Part shown: positions 17,480 through 45,405 of the stretch, piece after piece
How positions within the stretch are numbered: the stretch's first letter is position 1
Layout: each line of letters begins with the position of its first letter
Source of the DNA: Pedobacter riviphilus
Lineage (GTDB): Bacteria; Bacteroidota; Bacteroidia; Sphingobacteriales; Sphingobacteriaceae
Assembly: GCF_014692875.1 (NCBI RefSeq)
Contig: NZ_CP061171.1
Coordinates: 5,580,001 to 5,644,000 of the forward strand
Reading direction: 5' to 3'
Length of the DNA: 64,000 bases
The notes under the pieces: model-generated
Told to the model about the DNA's origin: nothing
Databases searched by the model: none
Seen by the model: the letters and a program-made list of their open reading frames with translations, nothing else
Position numbers and translations under genes: made by a program

Positions 17480-18049
17480 ATGCAAGATGAAATTCTTTTA
17501 CAGATAAGCGGAAAAATTAAGGAAAGACGTAAAGAACTTGGCATTACCGTTCAGGAGCTTGCAGATAAAGCAGAAGTAAGCAAAGGCCTTATTTCTCAGA
17601 TCGAAAACAGCAGAACTATCCCATCATTGATGGTATTGATGGATATTATTAAAAGCCTGCAGATAGATCTGAACAGCTTTTTTAAAGACATCAATTTTCA
17701 TAAGAAAGATGCCCCCGTTCTGGTGAAACGAAAAGATCAATACCAGAAGTTCGAAAAGGAACAGGCAATAGGGTTTAACTACTCGCGTATTTTAACCAAG
17801 AATATTAAATTTTCTACTGCCGATTTTGTGCTGCTCGAGTTGGAGGTAAATGCGCATCGCCCAATGGTGAAAACGGAAGCCTTCGAATTTAAGTACATGA
17901 TAGAAGGTAAAGTAGAATACCAGTTTTCGAAAAAGAAAATTATACTCGAAAAGGGAGACTCCATGCTTTTTGATGGAAGGCTTTCACATACGCCGGTTAA
18001 CGTTGGTGATGGCAAAGCGCTAATGCTGGTTATTTATTTTTTTGAGTAA
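17480..18049 (+). CDS. XRE-family transcriptional regulator with C-terminal cupin domain
   Basis: A 189-residue regulator. Residues ~8-65 are a helix-turn-helix (Thr-Val-Gln-Glu-Leu-Ala-Asp-Lys-Ala, Lys-Gly-Leu-Ile-Ser-Gln-Ile-Glu-Asn). Residues ~110-187 form a single cupin barrel (Lys-Tyr-Met-Ile-Glu-Gly-Lys-Val-Glu-Tyr, Gly-Asp-Ser-Met-Leu-Phe-Asp, His-Thr-Pro-Val-Asn). XRE-cupin proteins usually sense a small molecule and control neighbouring uptake or catabolic genes. It precedes the phosphatase, DUF5690, FAD oxidoreductase, SusC and SusD genes on the same strand, and near-palindromes upstream of two of them could be its sites. Confidence 0.92.
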   Translation: MQDEILLQISGKIKERRKELGITVQELADKAEVSKGLISQIENSRTIPSLMVLMDIIKSLQIDLNSFFKDINFHKKDAPVLVKRKDQYQKFEKEQAIGFNYSRILTKNIKFSTADFVLLELEVNAHRPMVKTEAFEFKYMIEGKVEYQFSKKKIILEKGDSMLFDGRLSHTPVNVGDGKALMLVIYFFE

Positions 18050-18057
18050 TATTGTTA

Positions 18058-18073
18058 TAAACAAAGTTTATTA
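18058..18073. promoter_or_regulatory. Candidate operator TAAACAAAGTTTATTA upstream of the phosphatase-family gene
   Basis: A near-palindrome (TAAAC, three bases, GTTTA). Fourteen of its 16 bases match TAAACAATGTTTACTA at 19226-19241, upstream of the DUF5690 gene. It begins 9 bases after the stop of the XRE-cupin regulator gene. Binding by that regulator is inferred from position only. Confidence 0.45.
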
Positions 18074-18271
18074 ATACTTAACAATTATCTACCTTCATCT
18101 TTATAAACCAATCTTAGGTTTGGTAATAGAAAAACATGAATATGAAACCATCATGATTTTTCAAGCCAAAAGGGATGAATAAACGGGTCAAGCCTTCTTG
18201 AGCACCGTAAAAACATCTACATGGGTGAAAAAACTGATTGTTTCATCACAATTGAACTAAATTATAAATTG

Positions 18272-19162
18272 ATGAAAAAATTTTTGAAAAGTACTTTAGT
18301 ACTACTTTGTTTATGTGTATTTGCGCAGGCACAATCTAAAAAAATTAAACACGTTGTCTTAATTGGTTGCGATGGTTTTGGTGGCTACGCTTTGCCAGAG
18401 GCGAATATGCCTAATCTTAAAGCATTAATGGCCAATGGCTCATGGACTACCCAGGCACGCTGTGTATTGCCGTCTTCAAGTGCGGTAAACTGGGCCTCTT
18501 TACTAATGGGGGCGGGGCCAACCGAACATGGTTATACCGAATGGGATAGTAAGGTGCCCGAAATTCCGTCTATTACCAAAACATCTTATGGTTTGTTCCC
18601 GGGAATATTTAGTGTAATCAGAGATCAAAAAAAACAAGCTAAAACAGCTATTGTGTATAGTTGGAGCGGAATTGGTTATTTGTTTGAAAAAGAAGCTGTA
18701 AATATTATCGTTAGTGGAAATGATAAAGATGATTTTTGTGCCGATACTACTGCTGCGATTATCAAAAAAGAGAAACCTTATTTTACCTTCCTGCATTTAG
18801 ACGAACCTGATGGTACAGGGCATTCAATCGGTCACCGTACACCGGCTTACTATAAACAACTTGAGCTGGTAGACCAGCGGATTGGTAAAATTGTAAAAGC
18901 AGTTAAAGATGCAGGTATTGCTGATGAAACCGTTATCCTGGTTACTGCCGATCATGGCGGAAAAGGTAAAGGTCATGGCGGTAAATCGCTCGATGAGGTG
19001 CAGATCCCATGGATTATCTCGGGACCTGGCGTTCGTAAAAACCATGAATTAAAAGATGCGATTATTACTTACGATACAGCCGCAACACTGGCCTGGTTAA
19101 TGGGTTTACAGCAACCGCAAAGTTGGAGAGGCAGGCCAGTGTTAGAGGCTTTTACGAAATAA
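18272..19162 (+). CDS. Secreted alkaline-phosphatase-superfamily hydrolase (phosphodiesterase/nucleotide pyrophosphatase-like)
   Basis: A 296-residue protein with a signal peptide ending Ala-Gln-Ala-Gln, which is why I chose ATG 18272 over an upstream in-frame ATG at 18221. The metal and nucleophile sites of the superfamily are present: Asp34 in Gly-Cys-Asp-Gly-Phe, a Ser-Ser-Ser run at 68-70 as nucleophile, Asp180-Gly-Thr-Gly-His184 with His188, Asp227-His228-Gly-Gly, and His235. It should hydrolyse a phosphate or phosphonate ester outside the inner membrane. It is shorter than classical alkaline phosphatase and closer to type I phosphodiesterases. It belongs to the regulator-transporter-oxidase-SusCD locus. 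Confidence 0.85.
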   Translation: MKKFLKSTLVLLCLCVFAQAQSKKIKHVVLIGCDGFGGYALPEANMPNLKALMANGSWTTQARCVLPSSSAVNWASLLMGAGPTEHGYTEWDSKVPEIPSITKTSYGLFPGIFSVIRDQKKQAKTAIVYSWSGIGYLFEKEAVNIIVSGNDKDDFCADTTAAIIKKEKPYFTFLHLDEPDGTGHSIGHRTPAYYKQLELVDQRIGKIVKAVKDAGIADETVILVTADHGGKGKGHGGKSLDEVQIPWIISGPGVRKNHELKDAIITYDTAATLAWLMGLQQPQSWRGRPVLEAFTK

Positions 19163-19211
19163 TATGCCAAACCCTAAACGGTAAAAATTTAACAATTTGA
19201 TAATTTTGAAT

Positions 19212-19241
19212 TTGTTTACTAATAATAAACAATGTTTACTA
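19212..19241. promoter_or_regulatory. Candidate operator cluster upstream of the DUF5690 gene
   Basis: TGTTTACTA occurs twice, at 19213-19221 and 19233-19241, 20 bases apart (about two helical turns). The first copy's TTGTTTA (19212-19218) also pairs with TAAACAA (19226-19232). The near-palindrome TAAACAATGTTTACTA (19226-19241) recurs upstream of the phosphatase-family gene. Confidence 0.5.
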
Positions 19242-19319
19242 TTGTGTTTTTAAATGAAATACATATGTTAATCAAATTAGTGGTGTTCGGTATGATAAAC
19301 AACATAAGCAGATATTAGG

Positions 19320-20638
19320 ATGGGTTTGCTTCATCTTGCCCGTAAAAAAGCACTTAATTGGCCTTATTGGTTAATTACAGTGCTTGGTGGTATAGCAGCA
19401 TTTGGTTGTTATACCAGTATGTATGCCTTTCGTAAAGCTTTTGCTTCTGCTACTTTTGAGCACCAGGAATTTTTGCATATCGATTATAAAGTTTGGTTGG
19501 TTATTGCACAAATGCTAGGTTATACCTTAAGTAAGTTTTACGGCATCCGTTTCATTTCCGAATCGGGGAAAAGTAACCGGGCAAGGAGTATCATTTTTCT
19601 GATCCTATTTTCCTGGCTTGCCCTGCTCGGATTTGCCTTGGTGCCTGCTCCATACAATATTGTGTTTCTTTTCCTTAATGGTTTCCCTTTGGGCATGATA
19701 TGGGGTTTGGTATTCAGCTATCTGGAAGGAAGAAAAACAACCGAATTTATGGGGGCGTTAATGTCGATCAGTTTAATATTTGCCTCAGGTTTTGTTAAAA
19801 CGGTAGCGCGTACACTAATGTCGTTTGCTTCAGTAAGCGATTATTGGATGCCTTTTCTTACCGGACTGGTTTTCCTGCTTCCATTGTTCCTTTTTGTTTT
19901 TTGCCTGGAGGTTATTCCACCACCTTCAAAAGAAGATCAGGAGCTACGTACCAAACGGGTACCGATGGATGCGAAACAGCGCAGAAAATTTATCACTACG
20001 TTTTTGCCGGGTATTATTTTAACCATTATCATTTACGTACTGCTTACCTGTATCCGCGATATGCGCGATAATTTCGAAGTAGAAATCTGGAACGGCTTAG
20101 GTATTCATAATAACCATATCTACACGCAGATTGATACCCTGATTTCGGTTGTGGTATTGGTGATGATGGGGCTTTTAATCCTGATCAAAGATAACCTTAA
20201 AGCCTTCACTGTGATCCATATCATGATTATTTCAGGCTGTTTGCTAATTGGCGTAAGTACATTCTTTTTCGATAGGGGGTACATTGGGCCGGTAAGCTGG
20301 ATGGCTATACTCGGGATGGGGCTATATATGGCCTACATTCCGTATAATGCTATTTTTTTTGAACGGATGATTGCCAATTTTCATTACAAAGGCAACATCG
20401 GTTTATTATGTACGTGGCCGATTCTATTGGTTATGTAGGTAGTTTTTCGGTATTGATGATGCACGAATTTGGCGAAACGAATATTAGCTGGATGCATTTC
20501 TTTAAACAGTGTTTGTTTGCTGTGCCACTCATTGGAGGGGCTTGCAGTGTACTCTCGCTGATTTATTTCAGGAGGAAAACTTTGGTTACAAATAAAAAGA
20601 TGCAGACAACGGGAAAAATGGTTTTAACAGGGAAATAA
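19320..20638 (+). pseudogene. DUF5690-family multispanning membrane protein (MFS-like), single-base frameshift
   Basis: Two frames together form one membrane protein of 439 residues. The upstream part (to 20438) has about ten hydrophobic segments, with Ala-Phe-Gly-Cys-Tyr-Thr-Ser-Met-Tyr-Ala-Phe-Arg-Lys early on. The downstream part, to 20638, holds Tyr-Val-Ala-Asp-Ser-Ile-Gly-Tyr and the last segments. One T is missing in the run at 20402-20404; restoring it gives 440 codons and Asn-Ile-Gly-Phe-Ile-Met-Tyr across the join. DUF5690 proteins look like major-facilitator transporters. In this locus it is the natural inner-membrane permease for the ligand taken up by SusCD. Probably an assembly error rather than a dead gene. 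Confidence 0.82.
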
Positions 20639-20704
20639 AATGTGACTTCGGTTAATAATATACCTTTAAAAGATCTCCTGTAAATATTTTACTTTATAGT
20701 AGTC

Positions 20705-20760
20705 ACCCTGAATTTATTTCAGGGTCTATTTAGTAGAAAGATGCTGAAACAAGTTCAGCA
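20705..20760. repeat. REP-like pair of hairpins between DUF5690 and FAD oxidoreductase genes
   Basis: ACCCTGAA (20705-20712) pairs with TTCAGGGT (20718-20725), and TGCTGAA (20742-20748) pairs with TTCAGCA (20754-20760). The two hairpins share the CTGAA/TTCAG core, as in dispersed BIME-type elements of this phylum. It could also attenuate read-through from the upstream gene. Confidence 0.6.
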
Positions 20761-20857
20761 AAGATGATCTCATTATGTAATGGGGTTAAAAAATGACCAT
20801 TATAATAAATCTTAACGATGTAAATAATTTTAAAAGCATCTTAAAAATAAACAAACA

Positions 20858-22018
20858 ATGAATAAACATTTCGATCTTATTGTAATTGGTGGAGGTATTT
20901 TAGGAACATTCCATGCTTACCATGCTTTACTTTCGGGCAAATCTGTTTTACAGCTCGAAAAAGACAATTTTCCGGTAGGCGCTACCGTGCGTAATTTTGG
21001 CCAGGTGGTGCCATCGGGTATGGAAGCCGAATGGTTCGAATACGGTGTTGCTGGTTTAGAGATTTATAAATCCATCCAGCAAGAATTTGATATCTCCGTG
21101 CAGCAAAATGGCAGTGTTTATATCGCATCAGATAATGATGAGCAGACCCTGATCCATGAACTGAAAGCGCATTACGATACCATCGGTTACGAAACCGAAT
21201 TGCTCAGTCAGCAAGCAGTTTTAAAGAAATATCCTGCTATTAAATCTTCTTATGCCAAAGAAGCTATCTTTTTTCCGAAGGAAATTAGTGTAGCACCAGA
21301 TCAAATGATCCATCGCCTGCACGAATATATGCAGACTAAATTTGAACGGTACACACTTAAATACAATAGTCCGGTTACGGCCTGCGAAAGCAAAGGAACT
21401 GGTGTAGCGATTGGTTTAAGAAACAATAGCGAACTTTTTACAGCAGAGAAAGCCATTATCTGTAACGGTTACGAATTTAAATTGCTTTATCCTGAACTGT
21501 TTAGTGAAAGTGGTATTGTGGTAAGTAAGCTACAGATGATGCGTAGTATTCCTATGCCAGAGGTTACTTTAGCCGGTAATATTTTAACCGGACTAACCAC
21601 CAGGCGTTACGAGAGTTTTGAGCACTATTGCCCTTCTTTCAAAAGCATTACAACTCCCGAACATTACGATGAATTGAAAAAATGGGGTATCCATATCCTG
21701 TTTAAAAAGGCTGCAGATAATACAATCATTATTGGCGATTCGCACGTATATGCCGACGTAAACCATTTCGATGAGCTTGGTTTCGATTTAAGCCATCATA
21801 TTAATGAGCTCATGCTCGAAGAAGCGGCCCGGATTGTTAATTTTGATGTGCGCAAACTGCAAAATACCTGGGCCGGATTTTATCCGCAGCACGCAACAAA
21901 ACACATTGTAACTTACGATCTCGACGATCGAATCCATATCCGTACAGCTATTGGCGGTAAAGGAATGACCGCCAGTGCAGGTTATGCTGCAGAAAGTATT
22001 AAGAAAATATTTAGTTAA
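20858..22018 (+). CDS. TIGR03364-type FAD-dependent oxidoreductase (aminophosphonate-linked)
   Basis: A 386-residue DAO-type flavoenzyme. The dinucleotide-binding Gly-Gly-Gly-Ile-Leu-Gly is at residues 11-16. The family mark Gly-Ala-Thr-Val-Arg-Asn-Phe-Gly-Gln-Val follows at 41-50, and the C-terminus has Gly-Gly-Lys-Gly-Met-Thr. I recognise this as the TIGR03364 clade, which is described as being encoded beside phosphonatase-like hydrolases and proposed to oxidise an aminophosphonate. That assignment is from memory of the family. The expected product is a phosphono-aldehyde, but no phosphonatase gene is visible in the window. It lies between the DUF5690 and SusC genes on the same strand. Confidence 0.85.
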   Translation: MNKHFDLIVIGGGILGTFHAYHALLSGKSVLQLEKDNFPVGATVRNFGQVVPSGMEAEWFEYGVAGLEIYKSIQQEFDISVQQNGSVYIASDNDEQTLIHELKAHYDTIGYETELLSQQAVLKKYPAIKSSYAKEAIFFPKEISVAPDQMIHRLHEYMQTKFERYTLKYNSPVTACESKGTGVAIGLRNNSELFTAEKAIICNGYEFKLLYPELFSESGIVVSKLQMMRSIPMPEVTLAGNILTGLTTRRYESFEHYCPSFKSITTPEHYDELKKWGIHILFKKAADNTIIIGDSHVYADVNHFDELGFDLSHHINELMLEEAARIVNFDVRKLQNTWAGFYPQHATKHIVTYDLDDRIHIRTAIGGKGMTASAGYAAESIKKIFS

Positions 22019-22053
22019 CAAATACTAAACAAAAATAGGGGTTTTTGTTAACT
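22013..22053. promoter_or_regulatory. Inverted repeat AGTTAACAAA / TTTGTTAACT upstream of SusC
   Basis: A perfect 10-base inverted repeat (22013-22022 and 22044-22053) with 21 bases between the arms. The left arm contains the stop codon of the FAD oxidoreductase gene and the right arm ends 68 bases before the SusC ATG. No T-run follows, so an operator or a weak attenuator is more likely than a terminator. Confidence 0.45.
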
Positions 22054-22121
22054 AAAAGTTGGCATTAGGCTAACATGTATATCTTATCATTGCATCTATA
22101 AAACTAAAAAATTATAGATAA

Positions 22122-25100
22122 ATGAAACATCTCTACAAGATGAAGATGTGCATGGTAGCTTTACTGCTGTTGTGCCTCACGCCTTATTTTACTTGGGCAC
22201 AAACAAAAATTGCTGGTCTGGTTAAAGACGATGCGCAACAGCCGATCCCTAGTGTTAGCGTACTGGTAAAAGGGACTAAAAAAGCTACTTCTACCGATCA
22301 GTCGGGGCGCTTTACCCTCGATGCCAAAGCAGGCGAAACACTTGTTTTTAGTTCGATCGGATTTTTGCCGCAAGAAGTTCAGGTTACGGGCGCAAACCTA
22401 ACTGTAACATTAAAAACAGATTCGAAAAATTTAAACGAGGTAGTGGTTACCGCCCTCGGTATCCGTAAAGAGAAACGAAACCTGGGATATGCCATTCAGG
22501 AAGTAAAAGGTGCCGATCTGGTAAAAGCCAGAGAAGCTAATCCGGTAAACGGATTGGTAGGAAAGGTTGCTGGTTTAACTGTTGGTGTATCTTCAGAGCT
22601 TTTGGGCCGCTCGTCGCTTTACCTTCGTGGCAATGATGTTAATTTGGTAGTGGTAGATGGGGTGCCGATCAATTCGGATACCTGGAACATCAATCCCGAT
22701 GATATCGATACTTATACTGTGCTTAAAGGCCCTGCAGCTGCTGCGCTTTATGGCTACCAGGCTTATAATGGTGCATTATTAATTACCACTAAAAGAGGTA
22801 AGCTAAGCGATAAGGGTTTTACAGTAGAGTTAAATTCGAGCACCCAATTTAACAAAGGATTTATCGCTTTGCCGAAAAGCCAGGATGAGTATGGGCCAGG
22901 CGAGCACAGTGCTTATGCTTTTGGCGATGGAAAAGGCGGTGGTTTAAATGATGGTGATTACGATATCTGGGGGCCAAAATTCGATGGTCAGTTGATTCCT
23001 CAATATGACAGCCCGATTGTAAACGGTGTGCGCCAGGGTACGCCATGGGTAGCACGTGGAAAAGATAACTTAAAGCGTTTTATCCAAACGGGGCTGCTTT
23101 CTGCCAACAACATTGCCTTATCTTCTGCAACAGATAAGTATAATTTAAGGGTTTCTATTTCCAATAATTATCAAAAAGGAATTATACCGAACACACAATT
23201 AAATATCAACAACTTTAATGTGAGCGGTTCGTATAATATCAGTCCGAAGCTAAGAGCAGAAGCCTATATCAATTACAGCCGTCAGTTTTCTGATAATATC
23301 CCTGATGTAAACTATGGCCCTAACAGTATAATTTATAACATGACCCTTTGGGGTGGTGCCGATTGGAACATCGACGATATGAAAAATTACTGGCAGCCAG
23401 GCAAAGAAGGGATCCAGTCTATCTATGCCGAATACCAACGTTACCATAATCCTTATTTTATGTCGTACGAATGGTTACGCGGACATAAAAAGAACGATAT
23501 TAACGGTTATGCGTCATTAAACTATAATGTAACCAAAGGATTGGATGTGCTGTTAAAAACGCAGATTTCGACTTACGACCAGTTAAGGACAGAGAAAATG
23601 CCATTTTCTGCTCACCCTTACGGACGTGAAGAAGGTTTGGGTGATTATAGGGAAGACCGCCGTAGCATGTTCGAAAACAATACCCAGTTGATATTAAAAT
23701 TTAACAAAAACGTTGGTGATTTATTCGAAATCAGCGCTTTTGGTGGCGGTAATGCCCGTAACTTCAGTTACAATTCGAGTTTTACCACTACAGACTATTT
23801 AAACGTTCCGAACGTATATAACTTCTCGAACTCTAAAAACCCGGTAAAAGCCTTCAATTTTAACTCTAAAATGTTGGTGTTAAGTGCTTTTTACTCGGTT
23901 GATTTAAGCTTTAAAAAGTATCTGAATATCAATACCACAGGTCGTGTGGATAAAAACTCTGCACTTCCGCCGCGTAATAATTCAGCATTTTATCCTTCAG
24001 TTTCATTAAGTTCGGTAGTTTCTGATTATGTAAAAATGCCTGCTTTTATCTCTTTTGCAAAAGTAAGGGCATCGTATGCCAATGTTAAAGACCCTGGTTT
24101 GGGTACACAGGACTTTATCGGTGCAACGCCATTACAAAGTTATCCGGTTGGTTATGGCGCTGAATATACTTCGTCATATGGTGGCCCTGGCTATGGTCTT
24201 TCTTCGCCATACAGCATCAGGCCAACCTACAATAACCAAACAGGTGCCTATTATACCAATAACCTGATCGACCTGAATGCGGTAAAAGCTCAAAGCCGGA
24301 CCAATTACGAAGGCGGTATAGATCTTAAATTCCTTAAAAACAGGTTAGGTTTCGAAGCTACTTATTTCAGGTATGTTGATGGGCCGAAAATTATCAGACA
24401 AAATATCTCAGCAGCTACAGGCTACCAAACCAATACCATCAACGGCCGTAAAACGCAAAACAGTGGTGTGGAGTTAAGTTTATCAGGCACGCCAATTTTG
24501 ACTGATAAATTTGGTTGGGATGTTATGATCAACTGGTCTACCTACAAACAGATTTACAAAGAACTTGCCCAGGCGAAACCTCAGTTGATCAGTTCTTTAA
24601 AACCGGCGATCGTATAGACAATATCTACGGTTCTGTTTTAGCCAAAACACCAAGCGGACAGGTGATTCATACTTCAAGCGGAACGCCGATTTCGTTACCA
24701 GTTAGCCAGCTGTTAGGTCATGCCGATCCAAACTGGGTGTGGAGCATCGGTAACAAATTCAGGTATGAGAATTTCTCTTTCAGTTTCCAGTTAGATGGTA
24801 AAGTGGGTGGAGTAATGCAAGATTATGTGCGGTTAAAATCGTTCCAGGGCGGTCGCCAGATCGAAACTATCCAGGGTAAAATGGGCGAAGCCAGATACCA
24901 GGATTACCTGCGTGTAAACGATCCTACATATAAAGGTACATGGGTAGGCGATGGTGTAGTTATTGCCAATGGGGGTAAACTTAACTTCGATCCGGTTACT
25001 GGTGTAATTACCAATTACGGCGACCTAACTTTTGCGCCAAATACCACTCCTCAGCTTTTGCAGGATTATCTGGGTGTTTTTTATGGTGCCAAAGAAAACA

Positions 25101-25348
25101 CCATGATGAGCCGTACCTACGCCAAATTACGCGAAGTAACTTTTGGCTACCAGTTACCTAAAAAATTATTGGAGCGCACGTTTATCAAATCTGCCAATAT
25201 TTCGGTAGTTGGACGTAACCTGTTGTACTTTATCAATTCTACCTATAACGATGTTGATGTAGATCAGTATTCGGGTAGAGAAGGGACTTCTACGTTGCAA
25301 ACACCAACTACCAGAAGTGTAGGCTTTAACCTTAATGTTACTTTTTAA
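22122..25348 (+). pseudogene. SusC/RagA-family TonB-linked outer membrane transporter, single-base frameshift
   Basis: Two overlapping frames (to 24617, and to 25348) together give a SusC of about 1075 residues. It has a signal peptide ending Trp-Ala-Gln, a carboxypeptidase-like domain (about 28-105), a plug with Val-Val-Val-Asp-Gly-Val-Pro and Ala-Ala-Leu-Tyr-Gly-Tyr, and a barrel ending Gly-Phe-Asn-Leu-Asn-Val-Thr-Phe. One C is missing in the run at 24568-24570; restoring it makes the total 3228 bases and reads Leu-Ala-Pro-Gly-Glu-Thr across the join. It would import the ligand captured by the SusD lipoprotein encoded 10 bases downstream. No other damage is visible. Confidence 0.87.
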
Positions 25349-25358
25349 TCGCTAGAAC

Positions 25359-26926
25359 ATGAAATCAATATATAAAATACTGTTCCTCTTCATCATTGTT
25401 GCTGTTTGTGGCGGATGTAAGAAAGAATTTGAAGAAAATTTTAAAAATCCAAACCAGGCCGAAACCGTTCCGCCGAACTTATTATTGAACGGTATTTTGT
25501 TCGATATGTATGAAGCACCTTTTTCGGGCTCAGAAAGATGGAATCAGTACACTGCTGCCAACTATTTCTACTATGCAACCAATAATTACGATTGGACAGG
25601 CGCTTCTTTAGATTATACTACCCTAAAAAATATAGTAAAGATGGAAGAAGAAGCCAACCGTTTAGGTGGTGCAGTAGCTAAACCTTACCTGGCTTTGGCT
25701 AAATTCTTTAAAGCGTATTTCTTTGTGAAAATGAGTTTGAAAGTGGGCGATTTACCGATGACGGAAGCCTTAAAAGGTTTTGCCAACCTTACTCCAAAGT
25801 ACGATACCCAAAAAGATATCTTTAAACAATCGTTAACGTGGTTAGAAGAATCGAACAACGATTTATCGGCTTTAATTATTGCGGGCAATAAAGAATTAAA
25901 AGGCGATATCTATCTTAAAAATGACCTGGTTGCCTGGCAAAAGGTTGTAAATACCTTTAAATTAAGGACTTTGATCAATTTGAGTACAAAAGCGGATGAT
26001 GCAGACTTACAGGTAAAACAACAATTTGCTGCGGTATTGGGCAACCCGACCAAATATCCGGTTATGGAAAGTATGGCCGATAACCTACAGTTTGTATACA
26101 ACGAAAGTTTTAATAAATACCCGAACAATAAAGATAATTTTGGTAACGATGCTTTGCGTTATAACATGGCGGGTACTTATTTAAATACCCTTTCGAGTTA
26201 TAAAGATCCTAGGGCTTATATGGTTGCTGAGCCGGCAAGAGGAGTAGCGGAGGCCAACGGTTATGCCATTACCGATTACCGGAATTTTGTGGGAGCAAGT
26301 ACGGGTGAAGATCAGGGTGTGATGTTGGATAAGGTACAAAAAGGTTTGTATTCGCTTATTGGCCGTTATAGGTATTATAGTGGTTATACTGCCGAAAACA
26401 CCTTCATTATTTCTTATCCCGAGCTCTGTTTTATCAAAGCGGAGGGTATTAACCGTGGCTGGGCTACAGGCGATGCCGAAAGCTGGTATAAAAAGGGTAT
26501 CCAAGCCTCTATCGGTTTTTATGGTATCAAGGATGGCGTTAATGTGGTTACCTTTCTTAAAAAAGATGGTAAACTTGGCGAATTCGAAACTTACAATGTA
26601 AACTTCACTTTCGAGACAGATTATTACGCACAGCCTGTAATAAAATATGCTGGCAATACAGCTGAAGGCTTAAAGCAGATCCTTACCCAAAAATACCTGG
26701 CCTATTTCCGTAACTCTGGTTTTGAAGCTTATTACCAGTATCGCAGAACGGGTATCCCGAATTCCAGGTGGGTCCAGGTATAGGTAATAGCCAAAGGATT
26801 CCGAAACGTTTTCAGTACCCTACTATTGAAAGGACAACTAACGGCGAAAACCTAAAACAGGCCTTACTCCGTCAATATAACGGAACTGATGATATTAATC
26901 TGGAACCGTGGATCGTTAAACCTTAA
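25359..26926 (+). pseudogene. SusD-like (SusD_2 type) outer membrane lipoprotein, frameshift near C-terminus
   Basis: The main frame (to 26783) has a lipobox Cys-Gly-Gly-Cys-Lys-Lys, Asn-Pro-Asn-Gln-Ala-Glu early on, and the TPR-like helices of the SusD-like 2 group (Ala-Lys-Phe-Phe-Lys-Ala-Tyr-Phe). It ends too soon. The neighbouring frame continues the expected C-terminus, Arg-Ile-Pro-Lys-Arg-Phe-Gln-Tyr-Pro, to a stop at 26924-26926. One A or T is missing in CCGAATTCC near 26760; with it the gene has 523 codons. This lipoprotein would cap the SusC barrel of the same operon. A strong terminator follows. Confidence 0.85.
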
Positions 26927-27126: not shown

Positions 27127-27200
27127 TCCTTCTTAGCTCAGCTGGTTAGAGCATCTGACTGTTAATCAGAGGGTCGCTGGTTCGAGCCCAGCAGAGGGAG
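27127..27200 (+). tRNA. tRNA-Asn (anticodon GTT)
   Basis: A complete cloverleaf. The acceptor arms TCCTTCT (27127-27133) and AGAGGGA (27193-27199) pair with one G-U. The D-arm contains AGCTCAGCTGGTTAGAGC, the anticodon stem TCTGA/TCAGA encloses the loop CTGTTAA with anticodon GTT, and the T-arm has GGTTCGAGCCC. The discriminator is G at 27200, and CCA is encoded at 27201-27203. Confidence 0.97.
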
Positions 27201-27202
27201 CC

Positions 27203-27233
27203 AAAACCCGCAACGAAAGTTGTGGGTTTTTTG
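27203..27233 (+). terminator. Rho-independent terminator after tRNA-Asn
   Basis: AAAACCCGCAAC (27203-27214) pairs with GTTGTGGGTTTT (27219-27230), with one G-U, around a GAAA loop, followed by T residues. It directly follows the encoded CCA end. Confidence 0.9.
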
Positions 27234-27339: not shown

Positions 27340-28314
27340 TCAACGTTTCACCTGACTAGGGGTAATGGAGAACTTTTTCTTAAATGCATTACTAAAGTGC
27401 TGCAATGAACAGTAACCCAATTCAAATGCTATTTCTGTAGCTTGTTTTTTGCCTTCGCGCAGATCGTTTTTTGCCAACTCCAAACGTAAATCAGATAAAT
27501 AAGAAAAAGCTGTTTGGTTAAACATTTCTTTAAAACCCCGCTTCAGTTTGTATTCATTTATCCCTGCTATTTTTGCCAGTTCTACCAGCGAAGGTGGCGA
27601 CTCCATATTTTTAACTAAATAATCGCGGGCAAATACAATTCGTTCTTTGTCGTAATCATGTTTGATGTATTCAGATTTTGAATTTTGAAGGTTATCAAAT
27701 GATTCCGCCTGCAAAACAAGTAGTTCAATCGTTTTAGAAAGAAGAAATAATCGCTTTAATCCACCCCAATAATCACAATTCAAAATCGAATGAATACAGG
27801 TCTGTAAAGGCAAATCGATATTTAAATTAGTACTTAGAAAAGCTACAGGTGTTCCCGAAACTATTTTGTCTGCAAACTGCTTAAGCGATTCATTTCCATC
27901 TTTTGATATGGACAAAAAAGCATCCTTTTCAAATTGAATCATAAATGATTTCATCCGCAGTTCATCAAACTTCATTTTGCCTTCGGCTTTGGTGCCATAG
28001 AATAAATTGTGCTGGTTCCCATTCAACTCAAAAGAATTGCTCATCCCATCCTGTTTTATCGAAGTTCTTCCCTGCAGATTAAAGTGCATGGTTACCAGCT
28101 CCGTATCTCCTTTCCAATCCAGTTCGGTTGGTTTATCAAGATCGGTTTCGGAGTAAAGAATCTTGATGCCATCAAAAAGCCATTGTTTAGCTCTTAATTG
28201 TCCAAAAGGGATGTCTATTTTAAAGGTATCTTCTTTAAAAGCCTGATTATTGATATTACTTTCATCAAAGGTCATTTTAAATGCCTTGTTATCATTTCTT
28301 AACTCAAATCCCAT
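27340..28314 (-). CDS. AraC-family transcriptional regulator
   Basis: A 324-residue regulator. The C-terminal ~95 residues hold the two AraC helix-turn-helix motifs: Ser-Leu-Val-Glu-Leu-Ala-Lys-Ile-Ala-Gly with Lys-Arg-Gly-Phe-Lys, then Ile-Ala-Phe-Glu-Leu-Gly-Tyr and Phe-Ser-Asn-Ala-Phe-Lys-Lys. The long N-terminal part has no clear cupin signature and is probably the effector domain. The gene is divergent from the FAD monooxygenase gene, with 181 bases between the start codons, so that enzyme is a likely target. Confidence 0.92.
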   Translation of the reverse strand: MGFELRNDNKAFKMTFDESNINNQAFKEDTFKIDIPFGQLRAKQWLFDGIKILYSETDLDKPTELDWKGDTELVTMHFNLQGRTSIKQDGMSNSFELNGNQHNLFYGTKAEGKMKFDELRMKSFMIQFEKDAFLSISKDGNESLKQFADKIVSGTPVAFLSTNLNIDLPLQTCIHSILNCDYWGGLKRLFLLSKTIELLVLQAESFDNLQNSKSEYIKHDYDKERIVFARDYLVKNMESPPSLVELAKIAGINEYKLKRGFKEMFNQTAFSYLSDLRLELAKNDLREGKKQATEIAFELGYCSLQHFSNAFKKKFSITPSQVKR

Positions 28315-28495: not shown

Positions 28496-29680
28496 ATGAA
28501 TAAAAAAGCAATCATCATAGGAGCCGGTGTTGCAGGCCCAATACTGGCTTTACAACTAAAGAAAATAGGTTTTGAGTCTGAAATATTTGAATCGAGATCA
28601 GAACACAATACAAAAGAGGGCGCCTTTTTGGGGCTCACGCCTAATGGCCTGAATGTATTGAAAGAATTTATTGATTTGGAAGCGCTCAAAGAAGATTACA
28701 CTCCAGGCTCAATGAAATTTTTCAATTCCAAAGGAAAACAAATAGCTGAACTGGGTACGGCTTACCAGAAACAGCAATATGGTGTTGAAACAATTCAGCT
28801 AAAACGCGCAAACCTTAACAAATACGCGCGAAAGGCAGCAATTGATGCCGGCATAACCATAAAGTACAACAAAAAATTTATTAGCTATGATGAAACAGAT
28901 GGACAGGTAACAGCCCGTTTTGTAGATGGGACAACAGCAACGGGCGACATAATAATTGGCTGCGACGGAATGTTTTCTGAGGTCAGAAACCAATTGTTCC
29001 CTGAAGCTTCCGTAGTGGAGTACACAAAGTTGATCTCTACAGGCGGGTATGCAAAGATTCCCGAGCTTTCAAAACCGCTGGATTCTATACGGATGACCTT
29101 TGGCGAAAGGGGATTTTTTGCTTATTCAGTTTCTGATAAGGGTGAAGTCTGGTGGTTCAATAATTATTTTAGAGCAGCGCAACCAAAGCCGCAGGAAATA
29201 GAGAAAACATTAAAAACTGAAATTCAAGACCATTTAATTGAGGTTCATAAGGACGACGATCCTTTATTCTCCAAAATAATCAAAAACAGTCATGAAATTA
29301 TTGCTTATCCTATTTATGATGTACCTAAGCTTTCGCATTGGTACAAAGGCAGAATTTGTCTAATTGGAGATGCTGCACATGGCATTTCTCCACATATTGG
29401 ACAAGGGGCTTCACTGGCATTAGAAGATACTGGTGTAATTGCTGACCTTTTAAAATCATGTAATGACTATGGAACTGCATTTCAGATGTTTCAATCGGAA
29501 CGCCAGCCGAGAGTAGAAAAAGTAATAAAAAGCGCAAGAAAAGTAGGCGATACCAAAACAAAAACGAATCCGATAGCAGCATGGTTCCGCGATCGCTTAA
29601 TTGGCTTCTTTATTGGCAAGCAAATTCAACAACTTGACTGGATTTATGGTTGGAGCCGCTCAGATAAGAGTAATAGTTAA
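28496..29680 (+). CDS. FAD-dependent monooxygenase (PHBH/TetX-like)
   Basis: A 394-residue group A flavin monooxygenase. It has the FAD-binding Gly-Ala-Gly-Val-Ala-Gly at residues 9-14, an Asp-Gly region near Ile-Ile-Gly-Cys-Asp-Gly-Met (about 155-162), and the Gly-Asp-Ala-Ala-His motif around residue 290 followed by Gly-Gln-Gly-Ala-Ser. It should hydroxylate a small aromatic or polycyclic substrate with NAD(P)H and oxygen. Tetracycline-modifying enzymes belong to the same broad family, but nothing here shows that activity. It is paired with a divergent AraC-family gene. Confidence 0.9.
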   Translation: MNKKAIIIGAGVAGPILALQLKKIGFESEIFESRSEHNTKEGAFLGLTPNGLNVLKEFIDLEALKEDYTPGSMKFFNSKGKQIAELGTAYQKQQYGVETIQLKRANLNKYARKAAIDAGITIKYNKKFISYDETDGQVTARFVDGTTATGDIIIGCDGMFSEVRNQLFPEASVVEYTKLISTGGYAKIPELSKPLDSIRMTFGERGFFAYSVSDKGEVWWFNNYFRAAQPKPQEIEKTLKTEIQDHLIEVHKDDDPLFSKIIKNSHEIIAYPIYDVPKLSHWYKGRICLIGDAAHGISPHIGQGASLALEDTGVIADLLKSCNDYGTAFQMFQSERQPRVEKVIKSARKVGDTKTKTNPIAAWFRDRLIGFFIGKQIQQLDWIYGWSRSDKSNS

Positions 29681-43465: not shown

Positions 43466-44254
43466 TCAGACTATTCGCATCAGTTTACTCACATGGCTTT
43501 CGTCAACCAGGCCAAATTCTGCAGCAATTTGTTTCAATCCAAATCTTCTGCTATCTATTCGCTGTTGAATTAAATTTTTACGGTAATCATGGATGTATTG
43601 GCGTAAGGTTATACCTGTATTTCTTTTAAAGTAAGGGCCTATATAATCTTCTGAAAGATTAAAATGTGCTGCCATTACATTCGCTTTTAAATTTTTAGGC
43701 TGGTAAATATATTTGTGCAGGTAACAGAAGATGGCTTGAATGTCTTTTGAGCGCTGTGCATTACTTTTTATTTCGGGCATATTGCGCTGCATGATAGCAG
43801 CAAGCACTAAGACCTGTGTCCAGATTAAAGCTTCATTTTGCATCATGTTTATATTAAGTGATAGGATGAGCGCAATGATGTTTTCTACAATCAACAGGTC
43901 GTCGGCAGTAAAATTAAAACTTAGAAAATGTGTTTCACGGCTTTTGATCAGGTATTCCAGGCATTGTAAGTTTGCGGGGTTAATCCCCTTTTGATGGATG
44001 TATATATCGGTAAACTTGATGTAAATGAAATGTGTTTTTTCATCAATTTCGAAATGGTGCTCATCTTCCGGGCCAATTAAGAATAGATTTCCTTTTTCGT
44101 AAACAACTGGGATTTCGTTAATGATATGCTGGCCAGATCCATTTTTAATGTAAATCAGTTCGTAATGATTGTGCCGATGCACAGGATGCTGCCATTTGCT
44201 TACTTCAAATTCTGAAATAACAATAGGCTGAAATTGGACATATCGCTTCATCAT
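43466..44254 (-). CDS. AraC-family transcriptional regulator with cupin sensor
   Basis: A regulator of about 262 residues. The N-terminus is a cupin (Val-His-Arg-His-Asn-His-Tyr-Glu, Glu-Lys-Gly-Asn-Leu-Phe-Leu-Ile, Glu-Asp-Glu-His-His-Phe). The C-terminal AraC domain has Met-Ala-Ala-His-Phe-Asn-Leu-Ser-Glu-Asp-Tyr-Ile and Ile-Ala-Ala-Glu-Phe-Gly-Leu-Val-Asp-Glu-Ser-His. The protein stops soon after the second helix-turn-helix (Lys-Leu-Met-Arg-Ile-Val), a little shorter than typical. I chose ATG 44254; 44251 and 44275 are alternatives. It is divergent from the SDR pseudogene 93 bases away, its likely former target. Confidence 0.88.
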   Translation of the reverse strand: MMKRYVQFQPIVISEFEVSKWQHPVHRHNHYELIYIKNGSGQHIINEIPVVYEKGNLFLIGPEDEHHFEIDEKTHFIYIKFTDIYIHQKGINPANLQCLEYLIKSRETHFLSFNFTADDLLIVENIIALILSLNINMMQNEALIWTQVLVLAAIMQRNMPEIKSNAQRSKDIQAIFCYLHKYIYQPKNLKANVMAAHFNLSEDYIGPYFKRNTGITLRQYIHDYRKNLIQQRIDSRRFGLKQIAAEFGLVDESHVSKLMRIV

Positions 44255-44347
44255 AGATTTATACAAATCTATCATACTATTTTACAAAAACATATCTCTG
44301 GTTTGTCAAGATCTTTACTGCACATAAATCAATTTAAATTAAAAGAC

Positions 44348-45405
44348 ATGAATAAAAATAAAACAGCATTGGTTGTGGGGGCAAATGGTGTAATTGGCGG
44401 TAATTTAATCAGCCATTTAGAAAGCCTTGGCGATTGGGATATTATCGGTTTATCGCGTCGGGGTGGGACAGATACAGATAAAACCAGGTACATTTCTGTA
44501 GATCTGCTCGATTTACAGGACAGTAAGAAACAATTGAGCTCCTTAACCAGCATAACACATATTTTTTATGCCGCGTATCAAGATAAATCTACATGGGCAG
44601 AGCTGGTAGCACCTAACCTGGCGATGCTTGTAAATGTGGTTAATACTATTGAAAGTATTGCGAAAGACTTACAGCACATCAGTTTAATGCAAGGCTATAA
44701 AGTATACGGGGCGCATTACGGTCCTTTTAAAACACCCGCAAAAGAAACCGATGGCGGACATATGCCTCCGGAGTTTAATATAGACCAGCAACAGTTTCTT
44801 GAGGCACAACAAAAGGGTAAAAAATGGAATTGGTCTGCGCTCCGTCCATCAGTAGTTGCAGGTACCGCATTGGGCAATCCAATGAATTTGCTTTCCGTAA
44901 TCGCGGTTTATGCATCTATATCCAAAGAATTGGGTTTACCTTTACGCTTTCCAGGTAAATTAGGTGCTTACGATAAACTTTTAGATATTACAGACGCCAG
45001 ATTATTGGCTAAGGCAACGGTATGGGCGGCTACAAACCCTGCATGTGCCAATCAGGCTTTTAATATTACCAATGGTGATCTGATTCGCTGGAACGACCTT
45101 TGGCCTAAAATTGCAGCTTATTTTAAGATGGATACTGCCCTCCGCTTCAAATGCCTTTGCAAACCATTATGGCTGATAAATCGGCTTTGTGGACACAGCT
45201 GCAAGAAAAACATAACCTGGTTAAACACAGTTATGAAGAAGTGTCAGCATGGGCATTTGGTGACTTTGTTTTTTCATGAGACTACGATTTCTTCTCAGAT
45301 GGTACCAAAGCCAGGCGGTTGGGTTTTCACGAATATATCGATACCGAAAAAATGTTTTTCGATCTGTTTGACGAACTTAAACGCAAAAAAGTTATCCCGA
45401 ACTAG
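44348..45405 (+). pseudogene. PRISE-like SDR family oxidoreductase, frameshift plus nonsense codon
   Basis: The N-terminal 260 codons encode an extended SDR: Gly-Ala-Asn-Gly-Val-Ile-Gly-Gly at residues 11-18 and Gln-Gly-Tyr-Lys-Val-Tyr-Gly around 118-124, like progesterone-5-beta-reductase/iridoid-synthase-like enzymes. At the C run 45138-45140 one base is missing and the frame is lost. The expected C-terminus continues one frame over (Tyr-Glu-Glu-Val-Ser-Ala-Trp-Ala-Phe-Gly-Asp-Phe). It then meets a TGA at 45277-45279, where relatives have Trp, before Asp-Tyr-Asp and the usual end at 45405. Two independent lesions make this the best true pseudogene here. The old frame otherwise runs to 45505. 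Confidence 0.78.

Follow-up and report, generated by a model that had tools for sequence, protein, structure and literature searches.

A Sus-type locus of Pedobacter riviphilus that probably serves aminophosphonate utilisation, with DUF5690 as a predicted inner-membrane permease

A stretch of 64,000 nucleotides from the chromosome of Pedobacter riviphilus (contig NZ_CP061171.1, positions 5,580,001 to 5,644,000; hereinafter designated the window) raises the question of what an outer-membrane SusC/SusD pair takes up when it is encoded beside a presumptive phosphonate oxidase. The source chromosome is a single contig of 5.8 Mb. The locus contains six genes, all on the plus strand, between positions 17480 and 26926 of the window: an XRE-cupin regulator, a secreted enzyme of the alkaline phosphatase (AP) superfamily, a DUF5690 protein, a TIGR03364 FAD-dependent oxidoreductase, SusC and SusD. 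Gene calls and domain matches place these six genes where a first-pass annotation, made from the sequence, had read them. We conclude that the locus is, with high probability, a Sus-type aminophosphonate utilisation system, with uptake by SusCD, ester cleavage in the periplasm, import by DUF5690, oxidation, an unlinked phosphonatase and control by the XRE-cupin protein. Most likely, one locus here combines a Sus-type system with a PbfD-type pathway. Gene identities, co-occurrence, gene neighbourhoods, conserved palindromes and predicted folds were computed here; all reactions and transport steps, as well as the ligand and the pairing of regulator and operator, are inferred from them.

The FAD-dependent oxidoreductase (20858–22018, plus strand) scores above the curated cut-off of TIGR03364 (335.1 versus 285.1 bits). 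In a tree of 35 rows, the 32 TIGR03364-type rows separate from three other DAO-family rows, an outgroup of one kind only, with support of 100/100. The window's protein falls among Pedobacter and other Bacteroidota rows, with two Acinetobacter rows neighbouring at weak support (90/57). The TIGR03364 group of the tree includes members from Acinetobacter, Gloeocapsa, Novosphingobium and Asticcacaulis, whose gene neighbours are annotated as PhnX, PhnW or transporters of 2-aminoethylphosphonate (AEP). Membership of this clade, proposed in the first-pass annotation, therefore holds both by score and by its separation from the three DAO-family rows. A search of the PDB with the protein gave just two weak DAO-family matches.

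The available sections of PMC10590968 describe an experimental precedent. A. baumannii PbfD1 carries the TIGR03364 annotation, genes of this family adjoin phosphonatases, and PbfD1 and PbfD2 oxidise N-methyl-AEP (M1AEP) and AEP to phosphonoacetaldehyde, but not sarcosine, taurine or beta-alanine. The window's protein belongs to the same family as PbfD1, but it lies in a Bacteroidota subgroup, and its activity as an M1AEP/AEP oxidase is predicted. Whereas the Acinetobacter TIGR03364 cluster has an ABC importer and PhnW, the window's system has DUF5690, with no PhnW over cut-off in the genome. Location within an AEP-degradation cluster, a feature of PbfD oxidases, is found in the sister operons and relatives; in the window's genome the C–P (carbon–phosphorus) hydrolase is unlinked.

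This hydrolase is a TIGR03351 protein (228.9 bits, cut-off 218.9) encoded at 1789564–1790226 of the same chromosome (~1.79 Mb), behind a palindrome related to those of the operon. The genome check suggested in the first-pass annotation thus turned up one phosphonatase over cut-off. The annotation had also described the pathway as incomplete because the window holds no phosphonatase; the absence from the window stands, but the incompleteness does not. Family searches of the genome found neither PhnJ nor Phn-HD, and neither PhnW nor PhnA reached its cut-off, so the FAD oxidase together with the unlinked HAD protein is the sole route detected within the families covered. All 10 aligned HAD/PhnX proteins, among them the window genome's own HAD and five annotated PhnX proteins, keep the DxAGT motif and the cap Lys; we take the Asp of the motif to be the nucleophile and the cap Lys to be the Schiff-base Lys.

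In sister operons the phosphonatase gene stands within the locus itself (compared loci and genomes are numbered with L and G, respectively). Operons L088 and L092 read XRE–AP–HAD phosphonatase–DUF5690–FAD–SusC–SusD, and L087 has the same order without SusCD. Throughout the genus, TIGR03364 is over cut-off in 61 of 145 genomes. TIGR03351-type HADs, of type a or type b, are present in 55 of these, and the other six have a phosphonoacetaldehyde dehydrogenase beside the FAD gene; a HAD of either type occurs in 7 of the 84 genomes without TIGR03364 (Fisher's exact p = 4e-25 for the TIGR03364–HAD association, relatedness ignored). The types were defined by identity to the genome's own HAD (type a 34–42%, type b 47–100%), with the sets cut at a score gap between 126 and 61 bits. 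These counts include hits with an internal stop (type b in G041; one type a each in G015 and G017), and operon position was checked for part of the type-a HADs. G085, G098, G107 and G122, with partial or split FAD genes, were counted as lacking TIGR03364. In the 43 genomes whose FAD protein belongs to the window's group, type b is present in all 25 that have neither type a nor a PhnA/PhnY cluster (with the internal stop in G041) and in 2 of the other 18. G055 was counted with the PhnA/PhnY clusters on the dehydrogenase confirmed upstream, its PhnA lying beyond the stretch examined. As a separate observation, all that remains in G098 is part of a TIGR03364 gene, interrupted by one internal stop, and 36 residues of type-b HAD, as if the two had been lost together.

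Other C–P enzymes take the place of the HAD in related loci. Ten loci (L055, L056, L058–L063, L065, L068) contain PhnA, phosphonoacetaldehyde dehydrogenase, the FAD gene and DUF5690, with SusC/SusD in the stretch in eight; PhnA (491.9 bits in L065) and the dehydrogenase (660.3 bits) are both over cut-off. The substitution of a dehydrogenase for the HAD in sister clusters suggests phosphonoacetaldehyde as the shared intermediate. Loci of the L042–L053 type contain SusC or SusC/D, a relative of the Phn-HD oxygenase (207.1 bits in L044, cut-off 214.6), XRE, HAD, DUF5690 and FAD genes, and L048 lacks SusC and Phn-HD. In five PhnA/PhnY-type loci (L055, L056, L058, L059, L068), a second DAO-family oxidase is encoded between the FAD gene and DUF5690; it has 412 amino acids in L055 and matches TIGR03364 at 52 bits, under cut-off.

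The DUF5690 gene (PF18943; 19320–20638, plus strand; 489.3 bits) often co-occurs with the oxidase gene in a phylum-wide sample. In 296 phylum-wide genomes, DUF5690 is over cut-off in 29 and TIGR03364 reaches E ≤ 1e-30 in 23 (22 over cut-off). Both are present in 21 genomes, where ~2.3 would be expected (Fisher 1e-23, relatedness ignored), and the co-occurrence check raised in the first-pass annotation thus came out positive for this pair. A phosphonate gene (HAD, TIGR03364, Phn-HD, PhnA, PhnY, PhnW or PbfA) lies within ~8 kb in 20 of 28 DUF5690 loci of this sample, a set that leaves out the window and L127 (DUF5690 under cut-off). PhnW and PbfA were searched in all 29 loci, and a weak PbfA-like aminotransferase in L123 (166 bits versus 366–929 for others) was left uncounted. 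In 80 named Bacteroidota loci found via TIGR03364, which are the best matches to one FAD subgroup and no random sample, DUF5690 is within 6 kb in 76 and a C–P cleavage gene in 74. Novosphingobium has DUF5690, TIGR03364 and phosphonoacetaldehyde hydrolase together. The gut species Parabacteroides distasonis and Bacteroides finegoldii (L214, L215) have a compact DUF5690–phnX–phnW set, which suggests the use of AEP by gut Bacteroidales. In the stretches examined, TIGR03364 of Gloeocapsa and Acinetobacter is accompanied by annotated AEP ABC importers and no DUF5690, and Asticcacaulis has TIGR03364 and phnX with neither DUF5690 nor an AEP ABC importer.

The predicted model of a 97% identical DUF5690 homologue (P0001; pLDDT 86.3) is a bundle of long helices. 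In a Foldseek search against the PDB, ranks 1–6 by E-value are G6PT/SLC37A4 (TM 0.61–0.64), carriers of the organophosphate antiporter (OPA) kind, with other MFS carriers close behind, some at higher TM (SPNS2 0.67–0.69, DgoT 0.66). All 36 diverse rows of an alignment keep R38, K72 and R246, even those whose loci have no phosphonate neighbours. A weak profile match (E 0.015, probability 2.9%) to a GlpT-type carrier places R38 and K72 on its RK and SKF motifs. We assume that R246 also has its counterpart in GlpT and that these Arg and Lys residues bind phosphate there, on helices 1, 2 and 7. By BLAST, DUF5690 proteins match two GlpT-type carriers at 2e-4 at best. Three of six full-length DUF5690 proteins match MFS_1, all below cut-off; the window's protein has no NCBIfam model match at E 0.01, and a PDB sequence search with the DUF5690 profile gave nothing at E 1. 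Because no curated OPA or MFS model was reached, we call DUF5690 OPA-like rather than an OPA member.

A functional precedent is AepP, a GlpT-related MFS carrier that, in the available sections of PMC8316502, is required for growth of P. putida BIRD-1 on AEP as nitrogen source. According to the same sections, AepP, like DUF5690, is encoded alongside C–P enzymes (PhnWX or PhnWAY), but it is 27.75% identical to GlpT at 9e-37, compared with 2e-4 or weaker for DUF5690. DUF5690 is a Pfam family of its own; the comparison is made here with the published description of AepP. Gene neighbours, predicted fold, invariant residues and the AepP precedent together lead us to predict that DUF5690 is an OPA-like aminophosphonate permease. 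More broadly, we think it probable that DUF5690 constitutes a so far unrecognised family that imports aminophosphonates across the inner membrane. As OPA-like MFS carriers, its members would replace ABC-type AEP importers and serve phosphonate loci throughout the phylum, from soil Pedobacter with a dedicated SusCD to gut Bacteroides with the minimal DUF5690–phnX–phnW set, and scattered phosphonate genes of Sphingobacteriaceae would be linked by an XRE-cupin regulon whose operator is TAAAC-N3-GTTTA.

The palindrome TAAAC-N3-GTTTA (hereinafter the N3 site) occurs twice in the locus. One candidate operator, TAAACAAAGTTTA, lies at 18058–18070 upstream of the AP gene, and a second, TAAACAATGTTTA, at 19226–19238 upstream of DUF5690. 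In the operons chosen as the closest ones, the N3 site is found upstream of the AP gene in 18 of 18 and before DUF5690 in 14 of 17; in the three that keep the HAD gene, it precedes HAD instead. Among other loci with the AP gene at the operon, the site is upstream of it in L066 and L070 and not in L060, L063, L065 and L075. Sixty loci of the genus contain 77 perfect N3 sites in 27,546 non-coding bases up to 300 nt upstream of these genes, sites that come from related genomes and are not independent, and 2 in 140,069 other non-coding bases. In a spacer control (0 to 8 other than 3), 0–1 sites were found near and 0–3 elsewhere, and the reversed order gave none. An N3 site is near these genes in 45 of the 60 loci. 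The 80 named loci have 56 sites near and none elsewhere, spread over 30 loci (25 of Mucilaginibacter or Pedobacter, four of unclassified Bacteroidetes metagenome-assembled genomes and one of Chitinophaga); the phylum set has five near and none elsewhere, in 3 of 29 loci.

The unlinked phosphonatase has a related element. A perfect palindrome precedes the type-b HAD gene in 20 of 21 genomes, with a spacer of 4 in 15, the window's genome included, and of 3 in five; the upstream regions come mostly from the top of a list of 37 genomes, and for 18 of the 20 the genome has a TIGR03364 gene, either intact or split. Of two genomes without TIGR03364 over cut-off, G026 has no palindrome before its type-b HAD and G099 has two. 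The XRE-cupin protein (17480–18049, plus strand; HTH_3 48.3 bits, Cupin_2 39.1 bits), which adjoins the same gene set in relatives, would bind the N3 sites, for example TAAACAAAGTTTA. A stricter pattern, TAAACAWWGTTTA, is found at five places in the genome, two of them in this operon, and its reversed control at three. We abandoned the bare palindrome as a genome-wide marker because it lacks specificity: the N3/N4 motif occurs at 75 places versus 34 for the reversed control. A separate inverted repeat, AAACAAAAA-N-TTTTTGTT, lies at 22027–22049 upstream of SusC; it is present in 15 of 15 orthologous gaps and in none of the other upstream sets, with a pattern that gave 0 of 15 at a narrower gap limit and was widened after the alignment had been viewed. 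Elsewhere in the genome, one N3 and one N4 palindrome lie ~135 bp apart, at 469620 and 469755 (L216 1501–1513), upstream of two genes named by eye, the first for an ECF sigma factor and the next FecR-like; this is perhaps another Sus-type unit under the same regulator.

The secreted enzyme (18221–19162, plus strand) matches PF01663 at 103.3 bits, and its predicted role is that of an NPP-type phosphodiesterase. The orthologue in the sister genome G081 begins at 18272, which is probably the true start rather than 18221. The residues that we take to be its metal ligands do not vary across an alignment of 39 homologues with identities of 63% or more, in line with the full active site described in the first-pass annotation. 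The fold is nearest to the ENPP/NPP phosphodiesterases and, with the PF01663 match and the metal ligands, places the enzyme in the NPP type. A role of this protein as a PhnA-like C–P cleaving enzyme was dropped, the TIGR02335 match being just 18.9 bits (E 6.7e-4); the coexistence of the AP gene with an in-operon HAD in L066, L070, L087, L088 and L092 also disfavours it. SusC (22122–25348, plus strand; TIGR04056 401 bits in the first frame, 79.6 in the second) and the SusD-like_2 surface lipoprotein (25359–26926, plus strand; PF12771 192.5 bits) are adjacent with a 10-nt gap, and the two matches identify a SusCD pair, although both frames are broken in this assembly.

These elements suggest the following pathway. 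The SusC channel with its SusD lid would carry a phosphonate-bearing ligand across the outer membrane, namely AEP or N-methyl-AEP, either free or as an ester, with phosphonolipids and phosphonoglycans as possible sources. The secreted NPP-type enzyme would cleave phosphonate esters in the periplasm and free the aminophosphonate, which DUF5690 would move across the inner membrane. The TIGR03364 oxidase would convert it to phosphonoacetaldehyde, and the unlinked TIGR03351 phosphonatase would split the C–P bond to give acetaldehyde and phosphate. The XRE-cupin protein would control the gene set via the TAAAC-N3-GTTTA operator. The idea of a Sus-type locus that feeds aminophosphonate oxidation, with predicted periplasmic ester cleavage, was already put forward in the first-pass annotation, and the phosphonatase, PhnA, phosphonoacetaldehyde dehydrogenase and Phn-HD genes of homologous loci, the co-occurrence and the shared palindrome favour it.

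Several findings weigh against this pathway, and two of its steps have competing explanations. No N3 site is nearby in 15 of the 60 Pedobacter-type loci, including the ten PhnA/PhnY loci; the palindrome of the unlinked HAD has a spacer of 4 rather than 3 in the window's lineage; and the bare motif is frequent in the genome, as given above. No phosphonate marker gene is near DUF5690 in 8 of the 28 phylum-sample loci, and of the seven genomes counted as HAD-positive without TIGR03364, five lack the gene and hold type b, and the other two hold a partial or split FAD gene. Within 6 kb, the 80 named loci have SusC in 45, SusD in 28 and an AP-type gene in 17, so SusCD and the AP enzyme are not obligatory, and the sequence does not constrain the ligand of SusCD or the substrate of the secreted enzyme. 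In one alternative, only the catabolic part concerns phosphonates, with SusCD and the secreted enzyme serving another organophosphorus ligand, such as phospholipid head groups or nucleotides, and merely co-regulated. The ENPP/NPP-like fold, the absence of SusCD from several core loci and of the AP gene from most of a distant Pedobacter group, and the proposal of Flavobacterium PusCD systems as general phosphodiester scavengers (available sections of PMC8115612) speak for such a division. However, the combination of SusCD with the phosphonate set recurs in two Pedobacter groups, between which the FAD proteins share ~30% identity, as well as in loci of Hymenobacter, Roseivirga and Chitinophagaceae, and the N3 palindrome also lies upstream of SusC in the distant Pedobacter group; we regard the division as rather doubtful, though the strongest of the competitors. 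It is less likely again that the substrate is a different aminophosphonate, such as 1-hydroxy-2-aminoethylphosphonate or some longer analogue, and that the aldehyde acted on by the HAD is not phosphonoacetaldehyde. The TIGR03364 database description, as quoted in the available sections of PMC10590968, proposes a substrate slightly different from AEP, PbfA and Phn-HD genes occur in related loci, and sister HADs fall below the TIGR03351 cut-off of 218.9 (198 bits in L088, 180 in L045, 197 in L048). Yet PhnA and phosphonoacetaldehyde dehydrogenase, both over cut-off, replace the HAD in sister clusters, which points back to phosphonoacetaldehyde, and Novosphingobium and Asticcacaulis have an annotated PhnX after TIGR03364.

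Also against the pathway, three of the six locus frames are broken in this assembly, and the window's own copy of the operon could therefore be decaying. The breaks lie near 20408 in DUF5690, 24567 in SusC and 26757 in SusD, each a one-base shortfall in a short homopolymer relative to G081. The possibility that this strain carries the operon as a cluster of pseudogenes draws weight from the distribution of the breaks: in a comparison of 30 G081 genes with the window, four are broken, the three locus genes and one of the other 24 compared. The fourth, at 45136 in a gene at 44228–45402 whose 392-residue counterpart is intact in G081, is a shortfall of the same homopolymer kind. At the protein level the locus still shares ~95–98% identity with G081, with 87% over the final 60 residues of SusD, while the DNA is 87–90% identical. 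Position 26926 is the end of SusD past its break, and the G081 orthologue runs on in the shifted frame to 26923; SusC orthologues in relatives are single open frames of 1075 amino acids. In another region of the assembly (L035 2407–4237, ~1.78 Mb), a beta-galactosidase-like gene, named by eye, is apparently split over two frames, a hint of assembly errors, and genome completeness is 97.73% on one contig, compared with at least 99 for most of the relatives listed. This pattern fits uncorrected long-read errors, and the frame breaks are probably assembly errors. We therefore set aside decay as the sole explanation, given the homopolymer shortfalls and the high protein identity to G081, and consider a pseudogene cluster the least probable of the three competing explanations.

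If the aminophosphonate reading holds, its relation to known Sus-like systems for phosphorus has to be defined. In the available sections of PMC8115612, PusCD complexes of the phosphate-responsive Flavobacterium PUS are placed near enzymes that degrade phosphonates; the general idea is therefore already in print, and the suggestion in the first-pass annotation that a phosphonate-directed SusCD would be new does not wholly survive. Both systems have a SusCD-type outer-membrane pair within an organic-phosphorus gene cluster. However, PUS is defined there by induction on phosphate depletion, whereas the XRE-cupin protein and conserved palindrome suggest another mode of control here, and those sections name no phosphonate substrate, TIGR03364 or DUF5690. 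A search of 5.39 million open-licence papers found no mention of DUF5690, and among the matches listed no title or abstract opening described SusCD with a phosphonate substrate, PMC8115612 being the nearest. New relative to the literature searched are the prediction of DUF5690 as a permease, the palindrome that the operon has in common with the scattered phosphonatase gene, and how widely the arrangement occurs. If correct, these proposals would give a function to DUF5690, a family of unknown function present in about one-tenth of the phylum genomes sampled (29 of 296), and would extend SusCD systems from glycans to C–P compounds with a defined intracellular pathway. Phosphonate uptake by Bacteroidota, gut Bacteroides included, would become directly testable, and the TAAAC-N3-GTTTA operator could be used as a query for further members of the regulon.

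Downstream of the locus lies an Asn tRNA gene (27127–27203). Beyond it, a FAD_binding_3 monooxygenase gene (28496–29680) is divergent from that of an AraC-type regulator (27340–28314); among the best NCBIfam matches of the monooxygenase, none of which reaches cut-off, are HpxO and, further down, tetracycline destructase.

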